This document shows positions 20,888 to 61,818 of a stretch of 64,000 nt of DNA, one piece after another; the first letter of the stretch is position 1, and each line of letters opens with the position of its first letter. The position numbers and the translations under genes are program-made. This DNA comes from Polytrichum commune (lineage: Eukaryota > Streptophyta > Polytrichopsida > Polytrichales > Polytrichaceae), in the NCBI GenBank assembly GCA_950295325.1, contig OX485808.1:18868527-18932526 (forward strand). The letters run 5' to 3'. Under the pieces are notes generated by a model. That model ran no database searches, had not been told where the DNA came from, and was given only the letters and a program-made list of their open reading frames with translations.

Positions 20888-22081
20888 TTACGAAAGTGCG
20901 TTCGTTAATTACAGACCATCGACCTGCATGAGCAGAACGTACAAGTTTTTTATACGAACGTACGTTCGTATAGCATAGGATGAATGAGTTTGGGTATAAA
21001 GGTTTATAAACGAGGAGTTTTTTCTGGAAACCAGTACAGAACTCGCATGTTGTATTAACGACCAAAATTTGTAAACCACAACTATCCCGAATTTCGAAGA
21101 GTATATCGGGACAAAACAGATAGCATGTTTACGAACGCACGTTCGTAAAACCACAGAAATCACTATCTGCAGGTGTACACCAGGAAATCATAGATGGCGT
21201 ACTTACGAACGCACGTTCGTAAATGAACAACCATTATATTTATAATTGCACATACATAAAAGCGTAGATGCCACATTTACGAACGCACGTTCGTAAATGA
21301 ACCACCATTCGCATTGCAAATGATTGATATACATGTGTCACAACGTCGACTCTGGTATACTTTGGTAGTTACGAACGCACGTTCGTAAACCCAAAACATT
21401 GCGTCTGATCCAACTGTGCTACTGATGGGACCTCATACTTACGAACGCGCGTTCGTAAAACCACAGCAACCCCCATCTGAATGTATAAACTAGGAAATCA
21501 TAGATGGCGTACTTACGAACGCACGTTCGTAAATGAACAACCATTATATTTATAATTGCACATACATAAAAACGTAGATGCCACATTTACGAACGCACGT
21601 TCGTAAATGAACCACCATTCGCATTGCAAATGATTGATATACATGTGTGTCACAACGTCGACTCTGGTATACTTTGGTAGTTACGAACGCACGTTCGTAA
21701 ACCCACAACATTGCGTCTGATCCAACTGTGCTACTGATGGGACCTCATACTTACGAACGCGCGTTCGTAAAACCACAGCAACCCCCATCTGAATGTATAC
21801 ACTTGGAAATCATAGATGGCGTACTTACGAACGCACGTTCGTAAATGAACAACCATTATATTTATAATTGTACATACATAAAAGTGTAGATGCCACATTT
21901 ACGAACGCACGTTCGTAAATGAACCACCATTCGCATTGCAAATGATTGATATACATATGTCACAACGTCGACTCAGGTATACTTTGGTAGTTACGAACGC
22001 ACGTTCGTAAACCCACATCATTCCGTCCGATCCAACTGTGCTAGTGATGGGACCTCATACTTACAAACGCGCGTTCGTAAG
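20888..22081. repeat. Palindrome array (arms TTTACGAACG / CGTTCGTAAA), with three copies of a ~310-bp unit
   Basis: Sites start at 20888, 20951, 21128, 21202, 21276, 21368, 21438, 21512, 21586, 21680, 21750, 21824, 21898, 21990 and 22060. From 21185 on they sit in a tandem repeat of about 310 bp (unit starts near 21185, 21495 and 21806), each unit with four palindromes spaced about 74, 92, 70 and 74 bp. The two central bases are usually CA, sometimes CG. The palindrome arms stay intact while the DNA between them varies. The array is upstream of the DUF7869 ATG and its probable 5'-UTR splice acceptor, so it lies in the promoter or a 5' intron. Confidence 0.9.
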
Positions 22082-22604
22082 TATCCGGTATTTGCGGCGG
22101 TATATGCGGGATATGCTATGTCCTGTACCTGTGAGGAATACGGTTGGCGAACAGGAGGGTGGCTTGAGCGCGCTCCGACGACTCTCTAGAGCGCACACCT
22201 CCCGTCAGCCGCAGAAAAGAGCTCTCCCATGGGGGGAAAAGCTTTAAGTACCTCCCCCCGGTGGTTCAAAATCTCTTGGATGCTCTTTAAAAAGCGGATT
22301 CCCGCCCCCTACCTAGACCTACCAATATGCCATTCCCGCCATGCCATTCCCGCCATGACGAATTATATAAATAGCATTTTGTATGCAACATGTATTGCAT
22401 GCACGCACATTATATTGGAAAAAAATGTAAATCGGTCGCACACCTTAGATGTAACCAAGGTCTGAACCACCAAATCTATATATATATATACATATATATG
22501 TTTCATGATATTTAAATATTATGAATTTTGACATAGAAGATTAAATGATTTGCAACCAAGGTGTGAAGTCCAAGTTAATTAACAATTCGTATCTAATACA
22601 ATAA
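22082..22604. other. Spacer with TATA-like motif, no gene
   Basis: Contains TTATATAAATAGC at about 22350, which looks like a TATA box on the plus strand, and a TATATA microsatellite near 22477. No convincing ORF follows the TATA motif. Confidence 0.3.
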
Positions 22605-22890
22605 TGGTATATTTGGTAATTGGAGTCATTTAGTTGATTTTGAGACTATTTAAGAACGCACTTTAAATTTCAAATATGGACTTGTAATTACAAACTAAAA
22701 CTTCCATACGTATAGTTTCCAAATCGGATACACCTTATATTAGACATAAAGGCATTGAAGGGAACGAAATTATGAAACATAGTTACATGAAAATATTTGC
22801 ACATGAAATGAGAAATAGACCCCAAAGGAAGGGAACATACCGAGAATTAATGGAACTTGAATCAATTCAATGGAAATACCATCCATAACT
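22605..22890 (+). mobile_element. Degenerate left inverted terminal region matching 45950-46231
   Basis: The sequence from TGGTATATTTGGTAATTGGAG onward is the inverted counterpart of the right end at 46231. Shared blocks in order include TTGATTTTGAGACTATTTAAG, GACGCAC/GAACGCAC, TTCAAATA, TAATTAC.AACTAAAACT, TTAGACATAAA.GCAT, GAACGAAA and GAAATGAGAAAT. The outermost CACTA is mutated here to TGGTA. It supports a composite unit running from about 22605 to 46231. Confidence 0.6.
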
Positions 22891-23349
22891 CTTCTTAACC
22901 TTGATATATAAAAGAAACTAAATATAGAAACTAAATTTATATCACTCAATAAGGTGGGAGTGGGACTCATGGACCCATGAACAGAAAATCATTGACGCAT
23001 GAATTAAGGGCCTAAGACATGCAAGTTATAATAATATTAAGTATGGATTGTGTGAACAAATTGTATAATAACTATTAAGTTATTATTTCATCAAAACTCT
23101 TAAGTTTCAAGTTTTATTAATCACATAAACCAAATTTTTGTCTCAATTCAATTAATTTAGAATCTCCAAATGACAATCGGCATGATTCTCAATTATTACG
23201 ATTGATATGAATCAAATAAAGCAATTTCCAATCCATCGAACATCGGTAGATCATTTTGACATGCCCATAGATCACAACATGGCCACATACAAGACTACCA
23301 TGTAAGATACAAAGATGCAGGGATGTAGAGTTTAGGGTTGGTGATAGTG
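22891..23349. other. AT-rich DNA, no gene
   Basis: Nothing recognisable apart from AT-rich sequence leading into the telomere-like run. Confidence 0.35.
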
Positions 23350-23376
23350 TTTAGGGTTTAGGGTTTAGGGTTTAGT
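23348..23376 (+). repeat. Interstitial plant-type telomeric repeat (TTTAGGG)n
   Basis: Three to four consecutive TTTAGGG units sit in single-copy-looking DNA, with isolated units nearby. Too short to be a chromosome end. It supports a plant source. Confidence 0.8.
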
Positions 23377-23750: not shown

Positions 23751-23809
23751 TTCTTTTTTAAACCCCCCCACCAAAGGCTGATTTTTCACAAAGGTTTTGC
23801 CCGTCCACG

Positions 23810-26042: not shown

Positions 26043-26600
26043 TTTACGAACGAGCGTTCGTAAATGTGAACACAACCTGCAAACCAGAGCTGTTGTGACC
26101 CCTCCCAGTCCATATGTTTACGAACGCACGTTCGTAAACACGCAACCCATCCTCTTTTCATGTGTTTACGAACGCGCGTTCGTAAACACCCACCCCTAAA
26201 CCCCTAAATTTTACGAACGCACGTTCGTAAACAAGGAATACATAATAGTCTGAGTATTTACGAACGCACGTTCGTAAGCACATAATCCCTGCCCATACCT
26301 CATTATACGAACGAGCATTCGTAAATGACTGCCTTGTGCCCGTCAAAAGATTTACAAACGTGCGTTCGTAAACACATGTTGAACAAATTGAAGATATAAA
26401 TCAGTATAAGTCACAACAGAACAAAATAATATAAACACATTGGTATTTAAAACACGCAAACATCTAAAGCCAAAAGAACAGCCTCTCAAACAGAACACAT
26501 TTACGAACGTACGTTCGTAAATATCTCAACAACTATTGTTCAAAATATTTGAAAATTGTAGAACTCTGTCTGCTAAATACGAACGCTCGCTCGTAAATAC
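26043..26600. repeat. Palindrome cluster upstream of ParB-like gene, ~47 bp spacing
   Basis: Same palindrome family as at 20888-22081. Site starts are 26043, 26117, 26165, 26210, 26257, 26304, 26351, 26499 and 26575. Five consecutive intervals are 48, 45, 47, 47 and 47 bp, while the DNA between sites is unrelated in sequence. The central two bases vary (AG, CA, CG, TG, TA, CT). The last site lies about 30 bp before a TTTTGCAG splice acceptor, so the cluster is probably in a 5'-UTR intron. Confidence 0.9.
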
Positions 26601-26628: not shown

Positions 26629-29325
26629 ATGGCCATCCCTAACAGAAGCGCGATAGAGATGTTCGGACAGAAGTTGGAGAGTGTCCCAGAGTCAGTGACA
26701 GACGACAATGGGAATGACAATTATGTCCCACAGGAGGACTTCATGAAAGAGTGGACGGCGCTTCTAGAGATGTTAGAGGATGGAACATTCGTTATCCGCT
26801 TCGTCTACCAGCTCAATACCAACGACGATGAACCAGAGCAGTGGGTGCAGATGGCAACATGGGAGATAGATTCCGTGGAGGCACAGGGCAATTACGTAAT
26901 CCTCAACATGAAGTACAACAATGACCACGTCAACGTGTTGCTGGACTACTTGGCATACACCTTCTCCCACAACTACGCGCAGATGCATGTTAAAGAGGAG
27001 GGAAAGCGTTTCGACCTGCCAAAACTCTTCACAAGATATAGCCTAAGTCAACATTGGACAGCAAGGAAATTGACCGCTTTGTGCTTGAACATCTCCAAGA
27101 CCAACAGTGTTGTGTTGGAGGCCAACAAGAAGAAGAAGAGTCCCAAGAAACCAACGCAATCCGGTGTAGGCGGATCTAGAAGTGCTCCGCGGCCTGTTCC
27201 CACTGCGAGCAGATTGACCGAAGGTACGAGCAGACATTCCACTCCTTCGAAGAGAACGAGGGACAACATGGAGAAGTCTGGCGTAACTGAGGGCGCAGAG
27301 GTCAGTTCCCCGCCAGTCATGCCGACTCCTTTGCAGAAAGGAGAGGTACCGGGCGGTGCGAAGGCCACGCGCATCCTTCGAGATTTTAACAGTTACTCGA
27401 AGGACTGCTGGCCAATGGGTCGATTTTTCACATTCAACGTCGACTGCTTCAAATGTGAAAAATCTCCAAACAAGTGGGTAGTGAGGTTACGGGAGACCGG
27501 GGGTGTGAAGTGGCAGTTGAATAACCTCTACAACAACGTCAAGTGGGACATGCAAACAGTTTGTGTGATGCCAAAGGGTTTCACTACCCGTCCCACGGAG
27601 AGGGATTGGCCACGAATCCTCAACGGAGATTTCTGGATCATCGACGGACATCACAGCTTGGAGGCTGCTAAGATCGTTCTGAATGACGACGCCTTCCAAC
27701 ACGAGCTGAAGGGCGACTTGCGCTATTGGAAGTCGTTTGTGGTGTGGTCAGACGACTGGGAGAAGCTCCGCAAAATATCAACGTATTTGAATAGCGGAAA
27801 CAAGACGAAAGCTTTTGAGGCGTCCTGGGCTGCGAATATTGTTGCTGCAAGAGACGTCTGGGTGGCACACGGTAGCCCCCCTAAGGAGAGGGAGAACGCC
27901 AAGAAACCTTCTCCACAGTGGAAGGTAAGTTTATGAACGTGCGTTCGTAAACATCATCTCAATATTTCCTTTCTTGTTTGCATTTTACGAACGTGCGTTC
28001 GTATTTTACTCTTGACTGACATCCATTTTAATATGCAGGCGTTCTGCGACGCTATGGTAGACAAATTCTCCTCCATCGACATGAAGTCTACTTCAACCAA
28101 GTCGGTGCTGGAGTTGAAAGGTGAGCTCAGGCTCATATGCTGTACAACAGACACCTGGGATTTATGGACCCAGTTTTTTGACTCCCACACGTCGGGAGAT
28201 TTAACCAACCCCGACACGGAGGAGAAGTACAATGCCGTTGAGAACTTCGAGTGCCCCCCGCTGCTCAGGGAGTTCTTCAGACCCCTCCAAGGGCTAACAG
28301 AATCGGAGTTGAAGCGATGCGCCGTGCACGCTCTAATGAAAACAGAGGGAAGGAAACTTCCCTATCCAAAAATATTTTTGAAGAGACCCAAGCACAAGCC
28401 CGGGACATACTCCATCAAGGAGTGGTGCGAGCATCGAAAGCTGAAGACAGCAGCAATGAGGGAATTGAGCGCACTGGCACCTCAATACCAAATCTTCGAC
28501 GTCGACGGCGACGTGAAGTGGAATCATTGGAAGGTGTTCAAGCAAGCCTTTAATATTAGAGGCCCCTCAATGCGAAGTCTGGTCAGGGAGCACGCCGCAT
28601 CTTTGAAACTGAAGGGCAACAAACGGACTAAGAAGTCCGAGACGGATGCCCAGGAGGTGGGCCTTTATAAAAAAAATTTGGAGAGGAAGAGGACAGCAAC
28701 ATTCGAAGGAGTGGCGAGGTTTTGCACTGTCACCACAGGCCTAGAGAGGACCACATTCTCTAAGTGGGATGGTAACTTCACCAGGGCGGATGTTAGGGAG
28801 GACCGACGGGGATGCCCATTTGCCCTTATCGATTTCAGGAGCATCCCGGGTGCGTCGAGCCGCGGGACAAAGGACCTGCCATTCTACAACCCATTCATGG
28901 CCAAGTTCATGGAGTACAAATCTCCTGCCATGAGGGAGCCCCACGTTTGGCTATGGATTGTCGAGCACGAGAGGCTGTCGGAAATTCTGGAACTGTACGA
29001 GAAGACCATCAAGTTCGAGTACAGTATTTACCACAGCACCTATGTTCCCGCCAAGACAGAAGGGATCGTTGTAATCAACGAGGCCAGGGGAAACAAGCAG
29101 GTGGGAGCAGTCAGCCTCGTCTTCCTGACCTTCAACCAGCTAAGGGATGGGAGGGTCCCTATCAAGGCTAGCAATGTATTCAAGAAGATATACAACATCC
29201 CGCACCCACCTCCCAAAGATCTATTCCAGGAGACGTTATTTACTGTCATTCCCGCAGTTGAACTCAGGCTGGAATTCTACATATCCATTCTCCAGAGTTT
29301 GACAACCCATGGAGAGACGGTGTAC
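26629..29325 (+). CDS. ParB/Srx-fold-like protein, interrupted by a retrotransposon
   Basis: Exon 1 is 26629-27924 (432 residues) and exon 2 is 28039-29325, joined by a 114-bp GT-AG intron holding two palindromes (27930 and 27984). The ATG directly follows a TTTTGCAG acceptor. Residues about 160-230 form a basic, low-complexity linker. Then WPRILNGDFWIIDGHHSLEAAK (Asp at about 339) matches the ParB/sulfiredoxin-type pattern DGxHRxxAa, the nucleotide-binding signature of the ParB N-terminal fold, with a conserved-looking helical region after it. Exon 2 encodes about 430 further residues (KRPKHKPGTYSIKEW, PHVWLWIVEHERLSEILELY) and ends within VELRLEFYISIL...THGET, where a Ty3/gypsy LTR begins. 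The TAA at 29326-29328 belongs to the LTR edge, not to the gene. Coding exons in the same style resume at about 42265. Function is unknown; DNA binding or nuclease or NTPase activity is inferred from the motif only. Confidence 0.6.
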
Positions 29326-31565
29326 TAATGCACCCCGTGGGTCGTTCCCTTGCAACTTAGCTCAAGAAGACTCACGGTAAGACATCACGTAAATTTATAT
29401 TCGCTTGAGAATTACCGTGCCTCATTAATATGTTCGGTCCTCTAATTAATAATTCCTCTCTTCTCCTTATGATATGAATATATTATTAGAGTGAACACAA
29501 TCTCATTATCTTAAATTCTCATTCTCAATGTAAGGCATCATTGATTATAAGAATCCTTAGATTAGAGAAGGTTTCAAGAGGTGTAACAATATCCTTGATA
29601 GCAATATATTTTCTAATAAGTTATATGTGAGCAATTTAGAGCTCGTAGTACATAACATCAATCACACAATTGTTAATATTACTCTTATAGTGAGGAAGAA
29701 GATCTCATGTTCTTGAGTCTTCCTTTTTAAGCTCAAGTGTTACTACTTATAATATTATAACTTGATATATATATATATAGTAGTTTGAAATTTCATGAAC
29801 ACATCGTTGATTGTTTTGCAATATCACGTTTAACTTCAAAGTGTTTCTTGATGACGATAGTAATTATAACTCTCTTGAGTTTTTCTCAAGAGAGAGAACT
29901 CTTCTCTTCAATAGTTAATCCTTTACTTGTAATGACATCCAACAACTCACAAAGTATCTTAAGAGAATAAGCACTTTTACTACAAAGTGTTTCTTGATGA
30001 CGAGAAGTAAACCTATCTCTCTTGAGTTTTGCTCAAAAGAGAGAGAGAGATCTTCTCTTTAATGAATAATTCTTCAAATTGTAATGACATCCAACAACTC
30101 ACAAAGTATCTTAAAAGAAGTTCAATAACAATTGTAGTAAGTAGATTATCTTATATCAATATTACTTCATTCATATGTATTCAAACTTTGATGTGAATTA
30201 ATGTCTTCATCATTCTTGTCAATCACAAGTTCAACAATCAATATGTAGTATAATATGTATAATACTTATAAGTCAATTATGTAGTTTTCAATAATAAGCT
30301 CCTCCTCTTTTGAAGGAGTTTGTAATCGTTAAGTGGTTTTGCTTTAAACATGCATATAATTCTTCAATCATTCAATCACATGTATATTTATAATTCCCTT
30401 TTGAGGAGTTCAATGATAAGTTCCACTTTAGAGAGTCAATCGTAATTCCGACGTTCAAGTCAAATTGTCGTTACTACTCACAACAACTACTCTCAAAGTT
30501 CCATTGATACTCCAACTCTTCTTGAGCGCTTTGTTCTCACCCTCGCACTAATACTTTGAGTTCTTTCTCAAAGTGCTTACTCTTCTCTCGTTTAATAATC
30601 TCTTGAGTCACAAGTACCAATTGACAACTCGTAGTTCGACTTGAGAAAGAGAGAGAGAAAGGTCACACACATTTGTGGAAAAGATATTGTATTGCAAAAG
30701 AGCTCCGAGAGGAGAGATACAAAGAAACTCAAGTGTTTTTAACACTCAAATTTGTGATAACTTCGTTGTGTAGAAAATGAGGTATAAGTCTCATAATTTG
30801 CTTCCCTTATATAGTCTTTTCTCCCTATCCAAAATCTATACTAAGAGTGGTTGTTAACTTCCACTTCCATAGATACTAGCTATCTTTGATATATGTAGAT
30901 GCCATCTATCCTAAACGGTTATAACCGTTTTACTATTTGAATGTTCAAATTACTAAAATTCTACTATATCCTTGTCGTGGCTACATTGTAGTTCCTTTTG
31001 AGAATGTAATCAAATCTCCACCATTGCTTGATTCCAATGATTTGTATTTAAACATACTAGTAGAATCTACCCTTGGCCTATATGCTCATAATGCATCTTC
31101 ATAATGTATAAGAATCTAAAATTCTTACATAATTCATGCTTCTTCAAAATATTCCATAAACATGTCTCTTCGGATAATCATTTATCCTCAAAATCCTATA
31201 TTCTATCTATCTCCTAAAGGCTTCATAATGCTTTTTCAAAATAGTCCTTTAAAATCTTATACTTCTTTATGCCTCCTAATGCTCAATACTAACTCCTCCA
31301 TGCTAGTATAGTGTCCTCCTACTCAATTCCTAAGTTCTCCTTCATTAAAACGCTGATGGCCCTATACCCGTGGGTAAGGGACCCCATAACCGCGCGTAAG
31401 GTACGTATTTCCATGACAGTGACCCTATTACCGTGGCTGAGAGCTCTTCGGCATTCTTCTTCGGCGTTCTTCTTCGGCATTCTTCCTCTTCATCTCCAGG
31501 GTTGTTTTGATGTTGTTATGCACTCTAACTTGCCTCTTCCTCTCTTATAATGTTGTTGCTTAACA
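29326..31565 (-). repeat. 3' LTR, about 2.24 kb
   Basis: It is the reverse complement of the solo LTR at 52466-54683, including the ends (TGTTAAGCAACAAC at one end, GGGGTGCATCA at the other, the last with one base changed here). On the minus strand it has a TATA box at about 30805-30816 (CTATATAAGGG). A segment of about 160 bp containing CACTTTGTAGTAAAAGTGC and TGAGTTGTTGGATGTCATTA is tandemly duplicated (about 29930-30110). Small ORFs inside are not genes. Confidence 0.9.
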
Positions 31566-31582
31566 TTTTACCCCCTCCCAAG
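31566..31582 (-). promoter_or_regulatory. Polypurine tract of the Ty3/gypsy element
   Basis: On the minus strand a purine run (CTTGGGAGGGGGTAAAA) directly abuts the 3' LTR, where the plus-strand primer of reverse transcription is expected. Confidence 0.7.
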
Positions 31583-31597
31583 AGGAAGATCCTGCCC

Positions 31598-34500
31598 TCA
31601 GGATCGCTTTGGGATTTTCATGCTTCCAGGGTCATATTGAGGGAGGTAGAGCAATGTGCGTGCATGTGGTGTTGATATGATCCTTTGCTCCAGTGTGCGT
31701 TTCCGATCTTCAAGGGCCCTGGTTATGTATCCATTTAGCTGTATTCGGTGAAAGCTTTGCGGAAAAGAGTCAGGGTATTTTCTGACAAGGTCTTGGTGTA
31801 GGTGACTGGCTTGATGTAGAAGTGAAGTGTCCTCTCCTGCTAATGTATCAAGTGCAGATAGGAAGTCGGGAAAGTTGGAATCGGCCATCTGTTGTATCTC
31901 CTTAACTAGGTCTAAGTCATATGGTTCAATCTGAGGCAGTGAGTTCCTGTTTTCTATGTTAGTATAGAACTCTTCATGATGCCTTTGAATGTGGTTAAGG
32001 GCCGAAATGCAAAACCTTGTGAGATAGAAATTTGGGTTTGTGGATGTTATTTCTGCGAGTCCCTTTGGTAAGACCAGATCCTTTAGAACCCACATAAAAA
32101 TTAGCAAATCCCTTGCAGCTGAGTTCGCTTTTGCCCATAATTCCTGAAATTGTTCCTTTGAGAGGTGACTCTTGTTCCAAATGTCGGGAAGGTTGCTCCA
32201 TCTCAAGATCATAGGTTTGAATGCTCTGTAGTACTGAAAAATACTAACTGGGGGTGGCAGATTTTGCATTGTTACTGTAATAGCATTGCCGAGATCTTCA
32301 ATGTTATCAAACCCTAAGAGACGCTCTAATGCGTAAGGATCTGGTATTTCTTCCTCTTGTTCAATCTTGGCTTGAAGTTCATCTCTCTCCGCTATTACCT
32401 GGTATAGTTCCGTTCTGAGAGTCCTAAGTGTGTGATGGATTTTGGTTGTGACTCTGTGTAGCAGTTTTTGTGCCGACATTTGTTCCTCTGTCGCAGGTTG
32501 TTTTTGAATCCATAAATCGAAGGCTTCGATTTTCGCAATTTCCATTACCCTGTCTTGATTTGAACGTGCTTGTGTATCTAATGTGTGAAGCTGTGTGCTG
32601 TAAGAGGCAAAGTCCTGCTGGAATGCTTGCAGGTTCGTTAAAATTTGGTGCCGAATGTCGGTGACAGTGCTGCGGAGTTGTTTTGATTTTTGCTGTAATT
32701 GATGTTCAGCGATGGCGGCTATCCTGGTTTGGTGTTGTCGGTAGTTTTGGATCTGGTCGCGGTGTTCCTGCTCCTGTCGTTGAAGGTTCTCCGCAAGCTG
32801 TTTGATGTTGACGATTTCGGCAGCATGTTGTGTTCGAAGAAGCGTTATCTCCTGGTGGTGTCGGTTCCTTTCAGCAGCTATCTGCTGGTCCATTTCGGTT
32901 GCATGCTGGCTTCGCAGGTTTTCTATTTGGGTTCGAAGTTCCTGATTTTCTCTTTGGCTGGCTGTAGCAATTCGGTGAGTGTGCCCTTCTGCTGCTTCGA
33001 TTTTTGCTTGGAGTTGCTGGTTCTCCTCAGTAAGCTGGTGGATTCGTTCCAGCGCTTTGGTGTAGAGGATTGATTTCTGCTTGTTGTCTTCGTCAATTAG
33101 TCTTTGTCGTTCTTCTGATGCTTTGTATTTGCTTTGTAGGAGACCGAATTCCTGTCTTAACAGGTTGTACTCTGCTTGAGAGGCGTTGTGGTGTGGTAAT
33201 TCGGCGTCGCGATGTAGTGCTGCTACTATCCCTGTTTGGGAATTTGGGGTTTCTTTTTGATTTTTGACTTTGTTAGACTGCTGCGCAGGTGCCGCTACAG
33301 ACTGGCTTCGGAGAGGCTCGGAGTTCGGAGGAGCGTGGTCCGTTACTTCGGCGATTTGCACTGTGTTTTCGGCGATGTTTTTTACTGCGCCTTTGGTTAC
33401 TTGTTGTAGATTCCACCTCTCTTCGGCAGCTGGGTTGTGCAGGCTTTTACTTCGGCGCCGAAGTTCCGTGTCTGTGGCTTGAGGAGTTTCGGCGAACTTG
33501 TTGGGCTCTTCGTTGTAGAGTGTTGATTTTTCTTTAGAGTTTCGGTGGTCGTTGCTGGTTTGATGCCGGCCTTGCTGATCGCCGAAGTTAGTCTGTAGAA
33601 GTTCCAATTTCTGTTCGAGCGGCTGGTTTACTCCTTTAGAGGTTTTGTCGATGCAGCTGATGCGGTCATTGTAACCGATTGCTGGCTCAATGTCGGCTTG
33701 GAGGATTTTTAGTTGAAGTTGGTCGCCTGTCTGAAGAGCTGCGGTGTTTGAAAGAGGCACAGTTGTGGTGTCCCTAAGACGATGTTCCTCTGTTGTACCA
33801 ATGTTTGAGTTCAATTCCCGCATCTCGGAATTTCCTGGGTTGGCCGCTTCTGAATCTGGAACAAATTTCTGTATGTTTTGTATCGCATTCTGATCTGCTT
33901 CGTTAAGTGGTTGCTCATGTTGTACCTTGTTGGATGCTAGTGATGTTTCTGTGATCAAATTCCCGAGGGATTGGGTAGCCTGATTGAGTTGCTGCCAAAT
34001 ACTTCTCAACTGTATTGGGTTGAACTGTAATGTGGTATCGTTTATTGTGCTTAGAAACACATTGTTGGTCGTTGTTGGTTCTATGACTGCACTCAAAGTT
34101 TTTGAAATGTCCCTTTCTTCCTTGAATGAGTCTGGTTTAACATAGGAGGGGTCTCCTAAATCAATAATAATGCTAGGAGTTGGTGTTGGTTTAGCCATGT
34201 CTGGTCCGGCTATGGCCACCAAAATCTGTGGAGGTTCTTTTGTTTTTGATGTTTCCCCTGTGGTGAGTTCCATTGGTTGGGTTTTCCTCTTTTTGGAAAT
34301 TGGTTCCTCTATTAATTCCGAAGGCATAAGAATGCCGGCCTCTATTTCTTGCTGGACTGTAAGCCGTCCTTCACTAATCAGAATCATGGTAAGTGGGGGT
34401 CCCACTAGTGTCCTCAAACTAGTAGTCTTATCCTTGTATAGTGCCTCTTTGAGAGTGATGAGTTCCGTTTTGATGTATGCATAGAACAATGCAGGCCAAT

Positions 34501-39404: not shown

Positions 39405-39407
39405 GTA

Positions 39408-43936: not shown

Positions 43937-44053
43937 TGCCTCTGAGCGCATTCGCATTGCACTCTAAACCCTCGCTCCCTCGTCATTCCCTTAATGCAAT
44001 TTTAATTTATTTATTGGACCATATCATTGAACTAGTTAAATTGTTAATCACAG

Positions 44054-46231: not shown

Positions 46232-46234
46232 TTT

Positions 46235-50827: not shown

Positions 50828-53800
50828 AGTTTGGGAGCTACCGATCTTGAAACTTACGTTTCAAATGCTATTGAAGGCATCATGGACCATGATGAGCAGA
50901 ATGTTGGGGAAGAGGTAAGTACTCACGTAGTTACATAATGTGTGAATTAGTTGTACCTTATGCCATGCAGCTTTGTGTCTTAAATACATACCTGTGTTTT
51001 GTAGGTCGAGTGCCCCACCCCCCAGGACTCACCGGCACCGGCTTCACCGGCAGCGACTCAAGCTTCAAGAGAGACTGCAATTGATCTTGACAGTTCTGAT
51101 GAAGGTCAGGATGAGGATGAAGATGGGCTTGGAGATAAGGATACGTTTGACGGGGATGAAGATGAACTTAGATCCCGTCAGAAATTGAATTCCGTGGCCA
51201 TGATCTCTCAATTGAGAGTCAAACTTTTCAGTTCATCGAGGTTCAATATTCCTTTATGTAGAATGCTTGCCATGCCTATGGTGAGGCCAACACTCTCAAC
51301 TGATCTTGATAAATTGGAGCAGGAGTTTGTCCATGGGTATAGAGAGGGCTCCTCAGTTTCTTATGTGACATTAACAGATGAAGAAGGCAAAACACAAGAG
51401 GTGTCTGAAGCTGATAAGGCATCCTGGGGTCCCATTTGGAATTCAAAAAATGAAGAATTCAATTCCTATCTTCAGTCTGTTCCGGAGTTAGCCGGTTTCA
51501 AGGATTTGATGTTCTTTGTATGTGACGGTAACCATAGGCGTAAGGCATGGTTAAATCATATTGAAAGACTTTACAAAATAGATGAGGCCTGGCATTATAT
51601 GGTGGATAGCATCCTACTTGACACAAAAGGCAAAGTTGGGGTTGTTATGCAAGTGATGCATAACATCAACAAGTAAGTTTTGTTAATTAATTTGTATTTC
51701 TTTTTATGTAAAATGCTTCTTGTTATACCATTAATGTCATGTGCTAATCCGCCCTTTTTGATTGATAATTGCAGGCATACTGAAGACTCTCACGTCAAGA
51801 CCAACTTTGTTCACACCCTTTTTAGGATTCAAAAGTATGGTCTTATGCCAATCGAACATTATCAAAACATATTGACTCCATCAGAGATGAAGAGGTGCAA
51901 GAGAACTCAAAATGCCAAAAAAACTTGGTACACATTGAATCTTTAAGTATTCACGAACTTCATCTTCCGGGTATGATCTCTATAATATGTACTGCATTTT
52001 TTTAATCACTAACATATTGTCATTATCTAAAATCAAATGATCACCTAGGTTACAGTATACTTGGATGACTAACTAAGTCTACCCCTGTGCAGCATGAACT
52101 TGGACTTGCTGCAGATGAGGGTGTTTGACAACTTGTGGAGCAATCAGATGTAGAAGTGTCCGCCGCTGAAAAAACAACCGCTATGAAAGTTGCTACAAAG
52201 AAAAGAGCCAAGGCACTTCATAAGAAAATGTCGAAACTAGTTGCTCTGGCAAACCCGGACTTGACGGATGGATGGCTTCGAGAGGTATAAACTCTACTTT
52301 ACAAGCACATTTTTCAATCTTCATGTTCTTTAATGACCCCTGAGATTCTAATAAATAGCTATATGTTTCACAGATTGGACGTCACTATAGTCTTAACTCA
52401 ATTACACCCGAGCTCAATATGGAGAAATTGCAGTTGATCGTTATTGCAAAAGCATCGGCCGCTTCTGTTAAGCAACAACATTATAAGAGAGGAAGAGGCA
52501 AGTTAGAGTGCATAACAACATCAAAACAACCCTGGAGATGAAGAGGAAGAATGCCGAAGAAGAACGCCGAAGAAGAATGCCGAAGAGCTCTCGGCCACGG
52601 TAATAGGGTCACTGTCATGGAAATACGTACCTTACGCGCGGTTATGGGGTCCCTTACCCACGGGTATAGGGCCATCAGCGTTTTAATGAAGGAGAACTTA
52701 GGAATTGAGTAGGAGGACACTATACTAGCATGGAGGAGTTAGTATTGAGCATTAGGAGGCATAAAGAAGTATAAGATTTTAAAGGACTATTTTGAAAAAG
52801 CATTATGAAGCCTTTAGGAGATAGATAGAATATAGGATTTTGAGGATAAATGATTATCCGAAGAGACATGTTTATGGAATATTTTGAAGAAGCATGAATT
52901 ATGTAAGAATTTTAGATTCTTATACATTATGAAGATGCATTATGAGCATATAGGCCAAGGGTAGATTCTACTAGTATGTTTAAATACAAATCATTGGAAT
53001 CAAGCAATGGTGGAGATTTGATTACATTCTCAAAAGGAACTACAATGTAGCCACGACAAGGATATAGTAGAATTTTAGTAATTTGAACATTCAAATAGTA
53101 AAACGGTTATAACCGTTTAGGATAGATGGCATCTACATATATCAAAGATAGCTAGTATCTATGGAAGTGGAAGTTAACAACCACTCTTAGTATAGATTTT
53201 GGATAGGGAGAAAAGACTATATAAGGGAAGCAAATTATGAGACTTATACCTCATTTTCTACACAACGAAGTTATCACAAATTTGAGTGTTAAAAACACTT
53301 GAGTTTCTTTGTATCTCTCCTCTCGGAGCTCTTTTGCAATACAATATCTTTTCCACAAATGTGTGTGACCTTTCTCTCTCTCTTTCTCAAGTCGAACTAC
53401 GAGTTGTCAATTGGTACTTGTGACTCAAGAGATTATTAAACGAGAGAAGAGTAAGCACTTTGAGAAAGAACTCAAAGTATTAGTGCGAGGGTGAGAACAA
53501 AGCGCTCAAGAAGAGTTGGAGTATCAATGGAACTTTGAGAGTAGTTGTTGTGAGTAGTAACGACAATTTGACTTGAACGTCGGAATTACGATTGACTCTC
53601 TAAAGTGGAACTTATCATTGAACTCAAAAGGGAATTATAAATATACATGTGATTGAATAATTGAATAATTATATGCATGTTATGATTTAAGCAAAACAAC
53701 TTAACGATTGCAACTCCTTCAAAAGAGGAGGAGCTTATTATTGAAAACTACATAATTGACTTATAAGTATTATACATATTATACTACATATTGATTGTTG

Positions 53801-54815
53801 AACTTATGATTAACAAGAATGATGAAGACATTAATTCATATAAAAGTTTGAATACATATGAATGAAGTAATATTGATATAAGATAATCTACTTACTACAA
53901 TTGTTATTGAAGCTTCTTACTTTAAGATTCTTTGTGAGTTGTTGGATGTCATTACAATTTGAAGGATTATCTATTCAAGAGAAGATCTCTATCTCTCTTG
54001 AGCAAAACTCAAGAGAAATAGGTTTATCTTCTCGTCATCAAGAAACACTTTGTAGTAAAAGTGCTTATTCTCTTAAGATACTTTGTGAGTTGTTGGATGT
54101 CATTAACAATCAAAGAGGAGTTCTTTCTCTTGAATAAACCTCAAGAAAGTTATAATTATTCTTGTCATTAAAACACTTTGAATGTTAAACGTGACATTGC
54201 AAAACAATCAATGATGTGTTCACAAAATTATAACTACTATATGCATACATGTCAAGTTACAATATTATAAGTAGTAACACTTGAGCTTAAAAAGGAAGAC
54301 TCAAGAATATTAGATCTTCCTCATCATTATAAGATTACTATCATTTGTGTGATTAATGTTTATGAACTACTAACATTAAGGATTCATACAATTTACTGAA
54401 CACTATATTATCAAGGATATTGTTACACCTCTTGAAGCTTTCTTTAAATCTAATGGTTCTTATTATCAATGATGCCTTACATTGAGAGTAAGAATTAAGA
54501 TAATGAGATTGTGTTCACTCCAATAATTATATTCATATCATAAGGAGAAGAGAGGGATTATTAATTAGAGACCGAACATATTAATGAGGCACGGTAGTTC
54601 TCAAGCGAATATAAATTTACGTGATGTCTCACCGTGAGTCTTCTTGAGCTAAATTGTAAGGGAACGACCCACGGGGTGCATCAGCTTCTAAGGTTAAATG
54701 GTTGGAATATTTAAACTCCTCTGCATCTACACGTGAGGCCCGCAAACTGCCCCGTAAGCCCACCAACGAGGAGAAACTGGGTGCATTTCTAGCTAAGGCG
54801 TGCTTTTGGGCCGGA
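50828..54815 (+). pseudogene. Second ParB-fold-like gene, partial, broken by a stop and a solo LTR
   Basis: Exons with good GT-AG borders: 50828-50914; 51005-51672; 51775 to about 51946; 52093-52284; 52374-52465 continued at 54689-54815. Before the ParB-like motif is a Pro/Ala then Asp/Glu-rich stretch. Exon 2 contains LMFFVCDGNHRRKAWLNHIE (Asp at 51524), a clear DGxxR-type ParB/Srx signature, followed by VVMQVMHNINK and, in exon 3, FRIQKYGLMPIEHYQNILT. Exon 4 has an in-frame TGA at 52126, one transition from CGA; exon 3 also meets a stop at 51944 unless it splices earlier. The last visible exon ends at a GTGAGT donor inside the second repeat array. Both outer introns consist of the 244-bp array. 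Only the short DGxxR-type motif is shared with the gene at 26629. Upstream and downstream exons are not in the window. Confidence 0.55.
52466..54683 (+). mobile_element. Solo LTR of the Ty3/gypsy family, 5-bp TSD GCTTC
   Basis: Runs from TGTTAAGCAACAAC to GGGGTGCATCA and is flanked by GCTTC at 52461-52465 and 54684-54688. It is the reverse complement of the LTR at 29326-31565. A TATA box (CTATATAAGG) is at about 53217. It interrupts an exon of the second ParB-like gene; ignoring one TSD copy, the reading frame continues across it. Internal sequence was lost by LTR-LTR recombination. Confidence 0.9.
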
Positions 54816-54839
54816 GTGAGTTAATACTTCCCAATCAAT

Positions 54840-56565
54840 TCGTTTAATTTGTTTGTCTTGAGGCCTGAAAACTGTTTGGGTTATATGTTGCTTAGGTTGT
54901 GATTAGGCCTGAAATCAAATTTCTGCCATTAAGATTTGGTCAACAAGGGTCCTAAGTGGGCTGAACTAAATGTGAAATCAATTGGGATAGATGTTGCTAT
55001 GGTTGTGATTAGGCTTGAATCTGACCTAAGTGTGAACTGAGTTTGGGATATTTTTTGCTTAGCTTGTGATGATGCCCGACAGCTGATTTCAGTGTGAAGT
55101 GAGTGATGGATAGACTTTGGTAAGCTTGTGAATAAGCCTGAATCTGATGTGAGTGTGAAATTTAAGTGTCATGTTGTAAAGGTGTTTAGTAGGCCTGAAA
55201 TCAAATTTATGAGAGTAAGATTTGGTCAATAAGGGGTGTCTCGGTCTTGGACCCTAGACAAGGGTCTTAAGTGGGTTGAAGTAAGTGTGAAATCAATTGG
55301 GTTAGATGTTGCTATGGTTGTGATTAGGCTTGAATTTGTTTTATGTGTCAAGTGAGTTTGGGTTATATGTTGATAAGGTTGTGATTAGGCCTGAAATCTG
55401 ATTTAAGTGTCAAGTGTGTTTGGGTTATATGTTGCTTAGGTTGTGATTAAGCCTGAAATCTGGTTTAAGTGTCAAGTTGTTAAGGCTGCTATAAGGCCTG
55501 AAAACAAATTTTTGAAAGTCACATTTGTTCAAAATAGTGTGTCTCGGTCCCGAGACACCCTACACAAGGGTATTAAGTGGGCTGACTTCGGTGTGAAATC
55601 AATTGGGTTAGAAGATGATAAGGTTGTGATTATGCCTGAATCTGATTTAAGTGTGAAGTGAACTTGGGTTATATGTTGCTTAGGTTGTGATTAGGCCTGA
55701 AATCTGATTTAAGGGTCAAGTGACTTTGGATTATATGTTGCTTAGGTTGTGATTAGGCCTGAAATCTTATTTAAGTTTGAAGTTGTTAAGGCTGATATAA
55801 GGCCTGAAATCAAATTTCTGTAAGTCATCTTTGTTCAAAAAAGTGTCTCGGTCCCGAGACACCCTAGACAAGGGTCTTATGTGGGCTGAATTAAGTGTGA
55901 AGTGATTTCAGATTAGAAGTTGATAAGGTTGTGATTAGGCCCGACTCTGATATAAGTGTAAAGTGAGGTTGGGTTATATGTTGCTTAGGTTGTGTTTAGG
56001 CCTGAAATTTGAATTGTTCAAAATAGTGTGTCTCGGTCCCGAGACACCCTGGACAAGGTCTTAACTGGGTTGAATTATGTGTGAAATCAGTTAGGGTAGG
56101 TTGTTGGTAAGGTATTTGTTATGCCTGAAATCAACCTTAAGTGTGAAGTGAGTTTGAATTGGATGTTGGTAATAATGTCATTAGGCCTGAAATCTGATTT
56201 GAGTGTGAAGTTGGTAAAGCCGATATAAGGCCTGAAATCAATTTTCCCAAAGTTAGGTCTGTTCAAAAAAATGTGTTTCGGTCCCGAGACACTCTAGAGA
56301 AGGGTATTAAGTGGGCTGACTTAAGTGTGAAATCAATTGGGTTCGAAGTTGATAAGGTTGTGATTAGGCCTGAATCTGATTTAAGTGTGATGTGAGTTTG
56401 GGTTATATGTAGCTTAGGTTGTGATTAGGCCTGAAATCTGATTTAAGTTTGAAGTTGTTAAGGCTCATATAAGGCCTGACATCAAATCTCTTAATATTAG
56501 CGTTATTCAAAATAGTGTGTCTCGGTCCCGACACACCCTTGAGAAGGGTATTAAGTGGGATGACT
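54840..56565 (+). repeat. Second block of the 244-bp palindrome array
   Basis: Palindromes near 55234, 55540, 55842, 56028, 56271 and 56517, more diverged at the gene-proximal side. It begins right after a splice donor (54816), so again in an intron. It is cut off at 56570 by the CACTA-like end. Confidence 0.9.
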
Positions 56566-56570
56566 TAAAA

Positions 56571-56612
56571 CACTATATTCGTTAATTGGAGACTTTGGAA
56601 AGTCTCTAAATA
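56571..56612 (+). mobile_element. Left terminal repeat of CACTA-like element, DUF7869 copy 2
   Basis: CACTATATTCGTTAATTGG followed by GAGACTTT-GG-AAAGTCTC. It is inserted into a monomer of the 244-bp array (GGGATGACTTAA just outside). The other end is not in the window, so the element spans at least 7.4 kb. Confidence 0.65.
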
Positions 56613-56997
56613 AATTGGACCCATAGTTTCGGATGCGAATATTGTGAACGTAGGGAACATGGGGAATATGGGGAACAATGGCAACACAATGTTTAGGAGA
56701 TCCATATGTGACTACTATATATAGATATCTAAATATAGTAATTATTTAGTTGATAATCAAAACTACGCCAACACAATATTCCAATGACAAAAATTCACAA
56801 TTATTTTGTATTTTCGATTTTGTAGTGAGCAAAAATAACGAATCTATAAATAGCCATCTGATTTTATATCTATAGACTCTTGGATGTGTATCCCAAACAT
56901 AAAGGTCTTAGCCAATTGTGGGTGAATTGAACGGCACATCCCAAACGCAACAATATTAAAATAATTTGACAGTGGGTACAAGAAATTGCAAATTAGC
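56613..56997. other. Subterminal AT-rich DNA, no gene
   Basis: Starts with CCCATAGTTT.GGATGC.AATATTGTG, shared with the end at 17211. Nothing else recognised. Confidence 0.4.
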
Positions 56998-57345
56998 ATC
57001 TGCAATATAATTATATAGTTTGGACTCCACATCCGTAAAAACAAACATATAAAAAATATTTGATAGCACATGGGAAGTTGGATTCCACATCCGTAAATCA
57101 ATACAATCATGCAATATAATTGTAATCTATAACAACCGTAAAAACAAACATATAAAAAACATTTGATAGCCATGGGAAGTTGGATTCCACATCCGTAAAT
57201 CAATACAATCATGCAATATAATTGTAATCTATAACAACCGTAAAAACAAACATATAAAAAACATTTGATAGCGCATGGGAAGTTGGATTCCACATCCATA
57301 AATCAATACAATCATGCAATATAATTGTAATCCATAACATTGCTA
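56998..57345. repeat. Tandem repeat, ~102 bp unit, about 3.3 copies
   Basis: Unit landmarks: GCAATATAATTGTAATCTAT, AACAACCGTAAAAACAAAC, CATTTGATAGC and GGAAGTTGGATTCCACATCC. Starts near 57003, 57109, 57211 and 57313. It lies between the element end and the DUF7869 stop codon and is not seen in copy 1. Confidence 0.85.
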
Positions 57346-57445
57346 TAAAATGTGTCTAATATACTAGTATTCGACCCCCATGTCATATATTTCATGAAAA
57401 ACCAAGACACATTTCAAATAACTTTGGTCCAAACCTACGTCAATA

Positions 57446-60400
57446 TCACTCTCCATCTTCATCCTCAGCTTCATTTCCATTATCGACATCGTTTTCTGCA
57501 GCAGCAATACGTGCCAAGTTGTCTTTGGCAAAATCTATATGTTTTTGGGGGATGGTCATTGTCTCAGATTTGGAACCTTTGCATGGTTTCCAAGCACAAA
57601 GTATGGTATCTGTGTTTATCCAAATTGGTTCGTATGCTGAGTCCATTGTCCATTTGAAACCTTTTTTTGTGTCCCACCCTAAATATATGCGGAGCACATT
57701 TTGATCTTTGGTGCTTGGACGGCAATATTCCACCTCAATTTGACGAAAATTTGGGCTAGTTGGAACAAAATTTGGTGATGACAATGCTTTTACCAACCAA
57801 ATCGGTTTAGGGTGCTCCTCATCTCCCGGACGTACGAGGATCATATAACCTTCGTAGCAATCAACAGCCACACGAAATGATGGAGCCGAGCGATTACGAG
57901 CTGGGCCAACATAATGGTCGTCCGCAGCGAACTCTTCACGGATGTCCCCATTGTCGAAGAACATGGCCTCAGATTCCACGATTGTCACTCGGCTTTGTGG
58001 CCAAAAACCTTGTGTCAAACATGAATGTGTATCGACATCGGGTGCTAGCAATGCTGAGCGAATGCGATCCCAATACGCAATCAATGGTTCGTGGATATCC
58101 CGAACACGCCTTGTGATGTCTTCCTCGCACAGTTCTTTCCAATACTCGATGAATCTGGATATACCTTTGATAATTTCAAGTCCATTCCTCATGGGGTTGG
58201 GTGTGCAAGGCTTTGGCTCCCCATCAGGTAGCATACATTTGCCCTCTTCGTTTTGGCGCCATACGAGTATCCCTTCCTCTGGACCCCAATTCGGAGAAGT
58301 GCACAAAACTTTGAATTGCATGGCCGGCAGACCATCATCATGCATATAGAATCGGAATTGTTGAGCCTTGGTATGGCCCACTAAGCGGTCACCTCCTTTA
58401 AGAATGAATGGTTTGATAAACGATTTGAAATCGGGCACTTCTTCAATCAAATGCGGGATGACTGGCACATTATCCAAATCCATGTATGATTTCATGAGAA
58501 GAGGAATTGTCGGAAAATCCTCCTCGTGCAACTTCATACTCCAACGTCCAAATGAAGCGTCAATGTCATCATGCGTGTGGCCAACCATCAAAAAAGACAC
58601 AAACACTTCTTTGAAAATGCCCTTGGCTACGAGCAATGACCAAAAACAAAACACGTATCAACATTTGTTGTTTTTGGCACAATTGTCCAGTTGCACGTGT
58701 AGAGTTGGAGGCAAAGGTTTAGCAAGAACGGGTTGTTCAGATGGTTCTTGCAGTGAAGATAGACAAACTTCCTTCCCCTCTAGCACAGCCTCATAAATCG
58801 GTGTTGTTCCACATCCAACAAAAAGAGCACGAGAGGATGATGTTGGCGGACTCTCAAGATCTCGTAGAAGTTTTGCAAAAGACCCTACGGTATGATTGGC
58901 GTCGCCTGGATAGAAATCCAAGCCATAATGTGCATATTTGACGTCCACATGGCCATGTGCGATCATACCTGAATTAACACATACAAATGAGAGGTACATT
59001 CCAAAATCAGCTATGAGAATGAGATTCAATTTTTCCGCAAGCACGCCAAGAAAATGAACAAACACTTACGGACGTGCATCCGTAACTCTTAACGATTAGT
59101 ATGTGGGTGCGCCAAAAAATGTGAAACCCAACGAACCTGTGACAGATATTGGAAGCTTGAAATATCCATCTGTAGCCTTTATTTTCCGCGCATAACACGG
59201 GCACGCAGTCTTCGCATGGTCCATTTTGTCATGAATGATTGTCAAAACCTCATTCGGCCTCATTATCGATAATGCGCGATTCTTGTAGTAGTCTTGACGG
59301 TGTGCCTCCTGGTTGTTGACATGCTCAATGTATTTCCGTTGATGTCTATTGTGCGACTCAGTCCCTATTGGATGTGCATCTCGAAGGCCTTTATATTTCT
59401 CACAAGCAGAACACCTAGCAAACTTATCCCCAGGCCTCTTCGTAATGTACTCTGCAAATTGTTGACTCTTGATCACACTCAATTTTGACAACGAAATCGG
59501 CCCACATCCAGCCTTTTCGCCAACTTCATTAACATCCATAGGTATGTTCTTCCATTTTGTCCCAGTAGGCAAAACCATCTGAACAATCTTTTCCCCCGAC
59601 GGCAAAGTCCGCGTCTTGTGTGGCATCGCATCCGCTAATGGCATAATGATGGTTGATAGTGTTGCAGCCGCTTGGAGTGTTGCCTCCCTGGGCTTTTTTG
59701 TGCCAGAGTTGCCATGGAACCGAGAACGCCGTCCTTGCATCGAGTAGTTCCGGAACCTATAAAAATCTGCCTTTGAAACTGCATGTATAATGTACCATGC
59801 CTTGCAACATACCTCTACATTTTCCAAGGTCACAACCTTACGACCTTCGGCATCAAAGTGCACGTTGCGATGAACTTCAAGTTTCTTTGCAGATCGCATA
59901 CGAAAGTCCGCAAGCCACATCTCTTGTCTCACAGATTTGATTTTGTCACGGGGAAATAGTTGGCAACACCTCTTTGCACAACAATCCTTTGTTGCTACGG
60001 ACCTAATAGATGTGTCTCCCAATGTTTGATCACGATGACGTTGCGTGGGTTCACGAGGCACGCGAACGGAATCATACTTACGCCGACCTTTTCTAGGACG
60101 CATTGTGGCGAACAAAGTCTTTTGTATTTCCTCAAAACGACGGGCATGATTCCACAAGCTGACACCATCATGAAGAACACTTCGCAACGGCCATCGATGA
60201 AGAGAGAATCTCCAACCAGGAGGCACTTCCAATGGATGTTTGGAATTCAAAATGCACACCCCAACATCTTCTTCCCCAAGGGGATTTGCATCAATACAGT
60301 CTATAGGATTTGAGTTCCTACAAACACCATCGGCCACGGGGACGCCACATCCATTGACTAGGACAACATCAAGATCAATCCACTGTTCCCGTGAATAACC

Positions 60401-60547
60401 CTCACATGGTGGAAGGAATTCATCCTCTACATTGGCGACACCAATTGTAGTTTCCTGTTCCACGACATCTTCAAATTCGCTAGCATAGCTTGACGCTTCC
60501 GAAGAGAACTCGAATGCACTATCATTGATGTTGGAATCCATGGCCAC
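57446..60547 (-). pseudogene. DUF7869-like protein, copy 2, with a premature stop
   Basis: Exon 1 is 60547-59137 and exon 2 is 58968-57446, with the same intron position as copy 1. The ATG follows a CTTGTAG acceptor. It has the same features as copy 1: DCCAKRCCQ, a complete CSAC pair followed by HPIG...H..H, CPCYARK, VQLDN and GHTHDDIDASFG. A TGA at 58655-58657 replaces the Arg codon CGA present in copy 1, just after the VQLDN motif, so a full protein cannot be made without readthrough. Everything downstream remains open, which suggests the stop is recent. It retains about 23 residues (LPAMQFKVLC...) that copy 1 lacks. Confidence 0.75.
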
Positions 60548-60685
60548 TACAAGTGATCCAAACGAAGAGTATGTTAAAATATCCCATTCAATAAATGATA
60601 TGGATAGGCCTAACGCTTATTGTCAATGAAACACAATGTGAACAATAATGAATTTCATGGCCTGGAAACAAAGGGTTTAGGGTAT

Positions 60686-61818
60686 ACGAACGCGCGTTCG
60701 TATACCTCCATGTAACAACATTATCAGTGCAAGCACATGCGCATACAAATACATTTATTTGTTCATAGTTTGCGGAAAGGTCCAGACAACGCGCATCCGT
60801 AAATCTCTTCATGATCAAAGAGGTCATTATCATGCGCAAATATTTCCGCAAACTATACAACTTAGGAATACGGACGCGCGTCCGAAAACATCCAAATGTC
60901 AAAAGCCAGTGTTGTCCAAGACACATAGAGGTTTAGGGACCCAAGAGGTCCAGGTGCCACGGACATGTTTACCCAAGCCTGACGACTATGAGTTTGAAGA
61001 GGTTAACATACGCGCTTCCTAGTGTGTTTTATGAATGTCAAAATATTATACTATGAGACATAGGGTGATGTAAGTTTAGGGTTTAGGGATCTTATGCCTC
61101 CATTGACCGTACAGTCTCAACGTAATATTCTACATGGCACAAAACTATGGCACCAGAGGTTTGCAGGTTACGGACGCGCGTCCGTAAACCTATCTGGACC
61201 TCAGTACGAGCACAAAGACAATGCTCAAGGCAACAAAGGAACAAAGCGCCCGGAGGTTTAAGCTTTATGGACGCGCATCCGTAAATTTACAGTCTCGATT
61301 GCATACTCTAAATGGCAAGTGGTAATGATCCCAGTTCAGGTGCAATACCGAACTATGTCACTACAAGGTACGCAGGTTTACAGACGCGCGTCCGTAAACC
61401 TCAACGTACATGAGTACTAGCTCAAGTACAGTTCTCAGAGCAATACATAATCAATTAACCAAGAGGTTTAAGGTTTACGGACGCGCGTTCGTAAATTTAC
61501 AGTCTCGATTGCATACTCTAAAAGGCAAGTGGTAATGATCCCAGTTCAGGTGCAACACCGAACTATGGCACCACAAGGTACGAAGGTTTACGGACGCGCG
61601 TCCGTAGATTTACAGTCTCGATTACATACTCTAAAAGGCAAGTGGTAATGATCCCAGTTCAGGTGCAACACCGAACTATGGCACCACAAGGTACGAAGGT
61701 ATACGGACGCGCGTCCGTAAACCTCAATGTACATGAGTACTAGATCAAGTACAGTTCTCAGAGCAATAGATAATCAATTAACCAAGAGGTTTAAGGTTTA
61801 CGGACGCGCGTCCGTAAA
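60686..61818. repeat. Palindrome array with symmetric G/C variant arms (TTTACGGACG / CGTCCGTAAA)
   Basis: Sites near 60686, 60870, 61167, 61264, 61377, 61474, 61587, 61700 and 61797. Those from 61167 on alternate at 97 and 113 bp (97, 113, 97, 113, 113, 97). Most have GGACG and CGTCC in place of GAACG and CGTTC. The 60686 site keeps the original arms, and 61474 has one arm of each type. Units carry GTCTCGATTGCATACTCTAAA and AGGTGCAA.ACCGAACTATG. Located upstream of DUF7869 copy 2, like the array at copy 1. Confidence 0.9.

Follow-up and report, generated by a model that had tools for sequence, protein, structure and literature searches.

Family-specific palindromes in the leaders and introns of DUF7869 transposons of Polytrichum commune, candidate operators for an element-encoded protein

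Introduction

Transposons that mark their own DNA are already known, and the closest described case is that of the VANDAL elements of Arabidopsis. There, the protein VANC21 binds a short motif that stands in tandem arrays in non-coding regions, both within introns (VANB21, VANC21) and in front of VANA21, and the motif types differ by subfamily (PMC5735166). VANC binding is further reported to remove silent marks (PMC10398659). Likewise, the subterminal motifs of CACTA elements diverge between families within one genome (PMC2613891). Here, we describe a 22-bp palindrome that recurs in a stretch of 64,000 bases of Polytrichum commune (contig OX485808.1 of assembly GCA_950295325.1, positions 18,868,527 to 18,932,526; hereafter the window), where it lies in the leaders and introns of a DNA transposon that carries a DUF7869 gene (alpha), a gene with a DGQH motif (beta) and a phosphatase-like gene or exon (gamma).

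The Polytrichum elements share with VANDAL/VANC a multi-gene DNA transposon, arrays of a non-coding motif in its own introns and upstream regions, and motif types that differ by subfamily, for which coevolution with an element-encoded protein has been proposed in the Arabidopsis case (PMC5735166, PMC10398659). They differ in that alpha is a DUF7869 protein and not a Mutator-type transposase, and in having a 4-bp target duplication, a dyad of 20-22 bp and a candidate DGQH binder, the VANDAL motif being the 9-base YAGTATTAY. Membership of the VANDAL (Mutator-like) elements was thus discarded, as alpha matches DUF7869 alone. With CACTA/En-Spm and its TNPA protein, the shared traits are family-specific motif arrays, an element-encoded DNA-binding protein (here a candidate) and divergence within a genome (PMC2613891). 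However, CACTA sites are subterminal and the duplication is 3 bp, whereas the sites described here lie in leaders and introns, 3.7-14.3 kb into an element of 16.7 kb that has ends AACACTATATTC (AACACT) and a 4-bp duplication, and this assignment was rejected as well. The reading that fits best is that the system would be convergent with VANDAL/VANC. In the open-licence literature we found no report of this palindrome-transposon system, and none on DUF7869. If our reading is true, these elements would add to the transposons that label themselves with private motifs in non-coding DNA, with DUF7869 and the ends setting the group apart from VANDAL; the new part would be self-marking in another transposon group, with dyad operators.

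Results

At up to 3 mismatches, the palindrome TTTACGAACGNNCGTTCGTAAA occurs at 39 sites in the window, while 100 dinucleotide shuffles gave a mean of 0.01 and a maximum of 1, in keeping with the dozens of copies that the initial annotation of this DNA had noticed. The sites fall into five clusters of 15, 9, 2 (27930-28005), 6 and 7 sites, located in the feature list below. These clusters precede both DUF7869 genes and the ParB-like exon, occur in the first intron of the ParB-like gene and stand before the NIF/FCP1-like exon, all as had been described. The assembly searched comprises 408 Mb, nearly all in seven contigs of 42 to 78 Mb, and contains 2909 exact copies compared with 0 for the reversed pattern. 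Pattern searches list the first places, and all linkage counts given here cover the places listed. For the exact palindrome (A/A), the first 100 of the 2909 matches include 14 that are the same place read on the opposite strand, which leaves 86 places, all on C1. Of these, 84 lie at most 18 kb inside a left transposon end or at most 10 kb from a scored alpha, beta or gamma exon, and the two places with neither nearby are C1:2286450 and C1:2485595. Thus, among the matches listed, the palindrome is not an equally common genome-wide sequence without a link to these genes. The scored exons are first-look candidates: 85 of 1857 for alpha, 90 of 1086 for beta and 148 of 1265 for gamma, to which 150 of 1491 candidates were added in a search for more distant DUF7869 genes.

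The palindromes are hosted by a DNA transposon of about 16.7 kb with inverted ends AACACTATATTCGTTAAT, carrying alpha, beta and gamma. Its limits are those at which the similarity of the window to three other copies (B, C7 and C2) sharply begins and ends. The uninterrupted copy B, on C1, measures 16,676 bp and the C5 copy 16,149 bp. A 4-bp target duplication flanks three of the five A/C5-type copies, namely B (ATGA), C7 (ATGT) and C2 (AGGG), and was not found at the window copy or the C5 copy. With inverted ends and a 4-bp duplication, the element is a DNA transposon with terminal inverted repeats. The length of 4 bp also made the Sola superfamily, which has duplications of this size, a candidate for comparison. 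The left-end pattern has 358 matches in the assembly (190 + 168), at least one of which is a right end that also fits the pattern. The ends are nearly constant between families, reading AACACTATATTCGTTAA in A, W2 and F502 and AACACCGGTTTCGTTAA in F975, an element of 11.0 kb with TTCC on both flanks. The genes beside the palindromes had been taken for unrelated; instead, they all belong to one transposon, and the window contains one copy and the left part of a second, with the following features.

17209 to 46233, no strand: transposon copy 1 (A family), limits from similarity to B, C7 and C2; split by a Ty3/gypsy element at about 29325-42242
17209 to 17246, plus strand: left terminal inverted repeat AACACTATATTCGTTAATCGGAGACTTTTGAAAGTCTC, from copy comparison
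17614 to 20775, minus strand: gene alpha, a DUF7869 protein and presumed transposase; open frames 17614-19119 and 19165-20775, exon borders not exact
20887 to 22081, no strand: 15 palindromes in the alpha leader, partly in a 310-bp tandem array
26043 to 26597, no strand: 9 palindromes 5' of beta, with 31 bases between the last of them and the ATG at 26629; CAG directly 5' of the ATG
26629 to 27924, plus strand: exon 1 of gene beta (DGQH motif, 'ParB-like'); 90 related exons scored genome-wide
27925 to 28038, plus strand: beta intron 1, 114 bp, GT..AG, with two palindromes (27930-27951, 27984-28005); borders from protein conservation, same length in copy B
28039 to 29325, plus strand: exon 2 of gene beta, cut by the Ty3/gypsy insertion
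29325 to 42242, minus strand: Ty3/gypsy retroelement inserted in copy 1, not part of the system
42994 to 43934, no strand: 6 palindromes, located in the region of beta exon 3 and ahead of gamma
44048 to 44818, plus strand: gene or exon gamma, NIF/FCP1-like phosphatase domain (Pfam PF03031, E=1.8e-15)
46196 to 46233, minus strand: right terminal inverted repeat (AACACTATATTCATTAATTAGAGACTTTT on the minus strand), from copy comparison
56569 to 64000, no strand: transposon copy 2 (W2 family), running past the window; left end inside a tandem repeat
57449 to 60616, minus strand: gene alpha of copy 2 (DUF7869); open frames 57449-58657, 58661-59065 and 59099-60616
60683 to 61818, no strand: 7 palindromes in the alpha leader of copy 2, 5 of them symmetric G/G

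The sites occupy the same slots in the A, C5, C6b and W2 copies: the leaders of both alpha and beta, the first and second beta introns, and the DNA that precedes gamma. Both beta introns carry the family's own dyad in A, C5, C6b, W2 and F502 (10 of 10 introns read), and sites are kept in introns whose remaining sequence differs. Across seven elements, none of 190 sites falls in a conserved exon, compared with 51 expected from length. Conserved exons are here the tblastn matches; these leave out beta exon 3 and include little of F975 or F692. A few sites lie in the open frame of the low-complexity third-exon region of beta, which is not counted as a conserved exon; since this frame covers 42994 and 43361, the intron placement of these two sites is uncertain. 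In copy B, at up to 3 mismatches, the first site is at 3742 and the last at 14309 of 16,676, with none in the first 3.7 kb or the last 2.3 kb, so the sites are not subterminal. The arrays are partly tandem, with units of 310 bp in A, about 78 bp in F502 and about 60 bp in F975.

Other DUF7869 elements carry palindromes of their own. The dyad types found in DUF7869 families are ACGAACG, ACGGACG, TTGGGTCG, CACGGGTG, CACGGGCG and GTGAGGCA, with arms of 9-10 bp and two central bases. The dyad is GTTTGGGTCG NN CGACCCAAAC in F502, CCCACGGGTG NN CACCCGTGGG in F692 and F677, and GGTGAGGCA NN TGCCTCACC in F975, with the same kind in F588; its centre varies widely in A and F502. When five dyad consensuses were compared with seven elements, counting overlapping sites as the best one and dropping sites with more than 3 mismatches from the pair counts, each element contained only its own dyad, save for the A/G pair, which is one base per arm apart. 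Even when 3 mismatches are allowed, the A dyad and the F502 dyad do not match each other. As this table and the empty conserved exons indicate, the non-coding parts of these elements contain arrays of family-specific motifs, as in VANC-type systems. Across the assembly, the F502 dyad occurs 9231 times without a mismatch. Some of its listed arrays, such as C1:477745-477862, have a period of 32 bases and no DUF7869 match listed nearby, and are possibly non-autonomous elements. Of nine further DUF7869 loci, read over 6 kb each, five have an array, one of the CACGGGCG type and the other four of types already seen; the controls of this survey, five Markov shuffles and three blocks of the window that lie outside the elements, reached no more than 2.

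Relatives of beta accompany these dyads beyond the arrays: the F502 protein is 35% identical to the window protein, the F692 relative 25% (E=2e-7), and the F975 relative shares 28% with that of F502 (E=4e-4). Divergence between families is seen in alpha as well. In F692, one dyad lies 3' of beta exon 1, and the sequence read ends before any acceptor. One F502 copy, at C1:3.96-3.98 Mb (L015, L020), carries both gamma and the right terminal repeat in the opposite orientation to its other parts. We had considered gamma to be a separate, divergent gene in F502, an idea that was dropped because the right terminal repeat is turned as well, which makes this an internal rearrangement of the copy.

Two pairs of dyads differ by one symmetric base, changed on both arms. 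The W2 dyad, TTTACGGACG NN CGTCCGTAAA, is found at most W2 sites and in all W2 slots; in the window, the cluster at 60.7-61.8 kb comprises, among its seven sites, 5 symmetric ones (ACGGACG..CGTCCGT), 1 mixed and 1 with the original core. The copy-wise palindrome listing on which such descriptions rest, including those of W2 and B, covers palindromes that contain CG. Over the assembly, the exact sites are 2909 A/A, 1147 G/G and 43 mixed, and the second one-base pair shows the same distribution, with 819 CCACGGGTGNNCACCCGTGG, 208 CCACGGGCGNNCGCCCGTGG and 36 mixed. For 50 listed G/G places, the closest left end no more than 21 kb away was determined: it belongs to the T type for 47 and to the C type for none, and the other 3 have no listed end. 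Among A-type sites on the beta side that carry 1-3 mismatches (copies A_B, C5 and C6b, past position 8000), 3 of 72 departures touch a C or G of the arms, bases that all lie in CpG, which indicates that the CpG core is kept. This is moderate evidence, the sites having been picked by closeness to the consensus and the copies being young.

The second exon of alpha matches PF25273 (DUF7869) with E=1.6e-39 and no other Pfam family, and the two window copies score 136 and 85.6 bits against a cut-off of 26. Its first exon has no Pfam match at E<=0.01. Exon 2 has no solved relative in the PDB at E<0.1, and its AlphaFold model, run with two more rows from the window, is unusable (pLDDT, the predicted local distance difference test, 31). 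A divergent alpha lies within 12 kb of 48 of the 90 scored beta exons, compared with a mean of 0.4 and a maximum of 2 in 200 random placements, and gamma follows on the same strand within 8 kb (4.0-6.9 kb) of 56 of the 90. Across both GT..AG introns, the spliced beta frame is open in four of five copies (A copy B, C5, W2 and F502). The residues DG-H-S are kept in 5 of 5 aligned beta members, and the third-exon region looks coiled-coil-like by eye. Beta exon 1 gave nothing firm against Pfam, PDB, NCBIfam, PADLOC or PHROGs, searches with beta exon 2 were equally without a firm match, and no alpha or beta relative was confirmed in IMG/VR. Between A and W2, identity is 42% for beta exon 1 and 86% for alpha exon 2. 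Gamma (44048-44818) reads LDLNGVL. FCP1/NIF phosphatases usually carry DxDx, and because LDLNGVL stands in that place, the catalytic state of gamma is uncertain.

Between alpha and beta, the stretch at 22608-22877 repeats the final 270 bp of the right end in inverted orientation, with about 76% identity, and copy B has the same. This suggests a fusion origin, in which the element may have arisen by the joining of an alpha module to a beta-gamma module.

Discussion

The transposon, the layout of its sites and the family-private dyads are established by the sequences themselves. The dyads are very likely protein-binding DNA sites. We further think it probable, with rather less assurance, that they are operators for a dimer encoded by the element itself, presumably beta, which would control or de-silence its own element. 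A similar geometry, together with sequence changed on both arms and in several slots at once, points to a symmetric DNA-binding dimer coevolving with its sites. Since the ends are near-constant while the A and F502 dyads differ completely, the recognition of the ends and that of the dyads look separate, which points away from alpha. Beta is the best candidate: all four groups with enough sequence read (A/W2, F502, F692 and F975) have it beside their dyads, it diverges with these, and its third-exon region is coiled-coil-like by eye. We would give it an even chance of being the binder. Each family of DUF7869 transposons carries its own dyad in arrays in the alpha and beta leaders, and in several families the dyads also occupy the beta introns and the DNA before gamma; in the scenario proposed, a dimer on leaders and introns could exert transcription control over the whole element. 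The most plausible effect would be that leaders and introns are kept free of silencing, as VANC does on VANDAL, an anti-silencing role that we regard as conceivable and somewhat short of an even bet; autoregulation would be a close alternative.

Among the other explanations, the sites could be used by the transposase, alpha, to build an excision complex, as TNPA sites are in CACTA. This is unlikely. It is true that alpha diverges between families too, and that family-specific motif arrays with a coevolving binding protein have been proposed for CACTA (PMC2613891). However, the sites are not subterminal, with both outer parts of copy B empty, those in the beta introns have no obvious role in synapsis, and dyads that are wholly different between A and F502 go with ends that are near-constant. 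It is less probable still that the palindromes form RNA hairpins in leaders and introns that serve splicing, small RNA production or export, the weaker of two interpretations offered in the initial annotation. Dyads are present in every one of the ten beta introns read (five copies, two introns apiece), and a change on both arms would be expected of an RNA stem as well, but many sites are upstream of genes, and the 2-base centre fits a protein dimer better than a loop. Moreover, the departures in the arms comprise 143 true mismatches versus 34 G-U (seven elements, one strand, no shuffled baseline), about as single random changes give, and there are 43 one-arm intermediates, which are G-U on one strand, versus 4056 symmetric sites. 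The interpretation that it offered beside hairpins, sites for a dimeric protein of a mobile-element family, fits better with the link of 84 of the 86 listed places to elements, with the lack of sites in conserved exons and with the joint switching of both half-sites.

Operators for a host transcription factor or for the host silencing machinery have in our view about as slim a chance as hairpins. Our data would also allow a host protein as the binder, but at least five dyads that differ by family, alike in several slots per element, would need a separate host factor for each family. Finally, the dyads could be functionless palindromic repeats that slippage and gene conversion multiplied inside the element, and the partly tandem arrays of A, F502 and F975 are what such a process would leave. 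We find this highly improbable, as sites persist in introns that otherwise differ, conserved exons are avoided, unrelated dyads of similar geometry occupy the same slots across families, and only 3 of 72 departures in the A-type beta-side sites fall on an arm C or G.

Several observations weigh against operators bound by beta. The centre is not free everywhere, being A/T only in F692 and CA or TA in F975, and the F975 dyads were found in the two leaders only, with none in the beta introns over the 20 kb read. Four of the nine further DUF7869 loci have no array in their 6 kb, among them L030 with one lone site; these may be relics, or their array may lie farther upstream. The W2 switch is incomplete, because W2 retains the A/A core at two sites and is mixed at no fewer than two others. 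Shared descent of the copies and the partly tandem arrays mean that the site counts overstate the number of independent events, and the faster change of beta compared with alpha may be ordinary. In C6b the spliced beta frame is broken, and this copy was dropped as support for it. As for the protein, the AlphaFold model of beta exon 1 alone is unusable (mean pLDDT 36), and no DNA-binding domain, CTP-binding motif or helix-turn-helix was identified in it. Beta has no ParB match in Pfam (none at E<=10), NCBIfam or PADLOC, and the sole ParB-like match, to phrog_1033 of PHROGs with E=0.029, covers the DGQH region and came from one beta protein out of four scanned.

The DGQH motif of beta is similar to the ParB/sulfiredoxin/DndB signature. 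Because the sole profile support is that PHROGs model, 'ParB-like' is treated as a lead, and a relation of beta to ParB is weakly suggested. KorB belongs to the ParB family. On plasmid RK2, KorB acts from OB operators both near to and far from promoters (PMC11790492). It would be the nearest mechanistic parallel if beta is ParB-like, being the regulator of one mobile element with near and far operators; it differs in being bacterial, and the link of beta to ParB consists of one motif and one weak match. A bolder version, which we hold to be doubtful, is that beta would be a ParB-like coiled-coil dimer with coevolving private operators of about 22 bp, which loads and spreads like ParB or KorB and shields the element from silencing, possibly together with its own FCP1-like RNA polymerase II phosphatase, and independently of VANC.

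Should beta prove to be the binder, one genome would offer a natural series of operators and proteins, with five dyads that have a beta relative adjoining, two of these relatives being weak. The two pairs of dyads that are one symmetric base apart would make the evolution of DNA-binding specificity directly testable, and the unnamed genes beside DUF7869 would gain a testable function. If both binding and demethylation hold, these proteins could provide orthogonal, sequence-specific tools for the epigenome.

Additional features of the window

A scan of the window with Rfam at gathering scores gave 0 matches. A right terminal repeat belonging to the same group of transposons (ends GAATATAGTGTT) stands at 7809-7848, and a search of the window upstream of it, allowing up to 2 mismatches, revealed no left partner. 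The gene of a DUF659 hAT element (2889-6140) lies 1.7 kb from it; this element and the TTTAGGG-type repeats of the window agree with a plant host. The Ty3/gypsy insertion in copy 1 has a 2.2 kb repeat at one end only, and a 94% identical inverted copy of this repeat is found at 52466-54684, within the tandem-repeat region. This region, a 61/243-bp tandem repeat at 46234-56568, separates the right end of copy 1 from copy 2, whose left end falls inside it, and other sequence interrupts it at about 50.6-54.9 kb. Another 22-base palindrome, TGTGTCTCGGTCCCGAGACACC, belongs to the 243-bp tandem repeat and lies outside both elements, and a link between it and the dyads was dropped. Short interstitial telomere repeats of the TTTAGGG type are present at 23345-23375 and 63037-63068.

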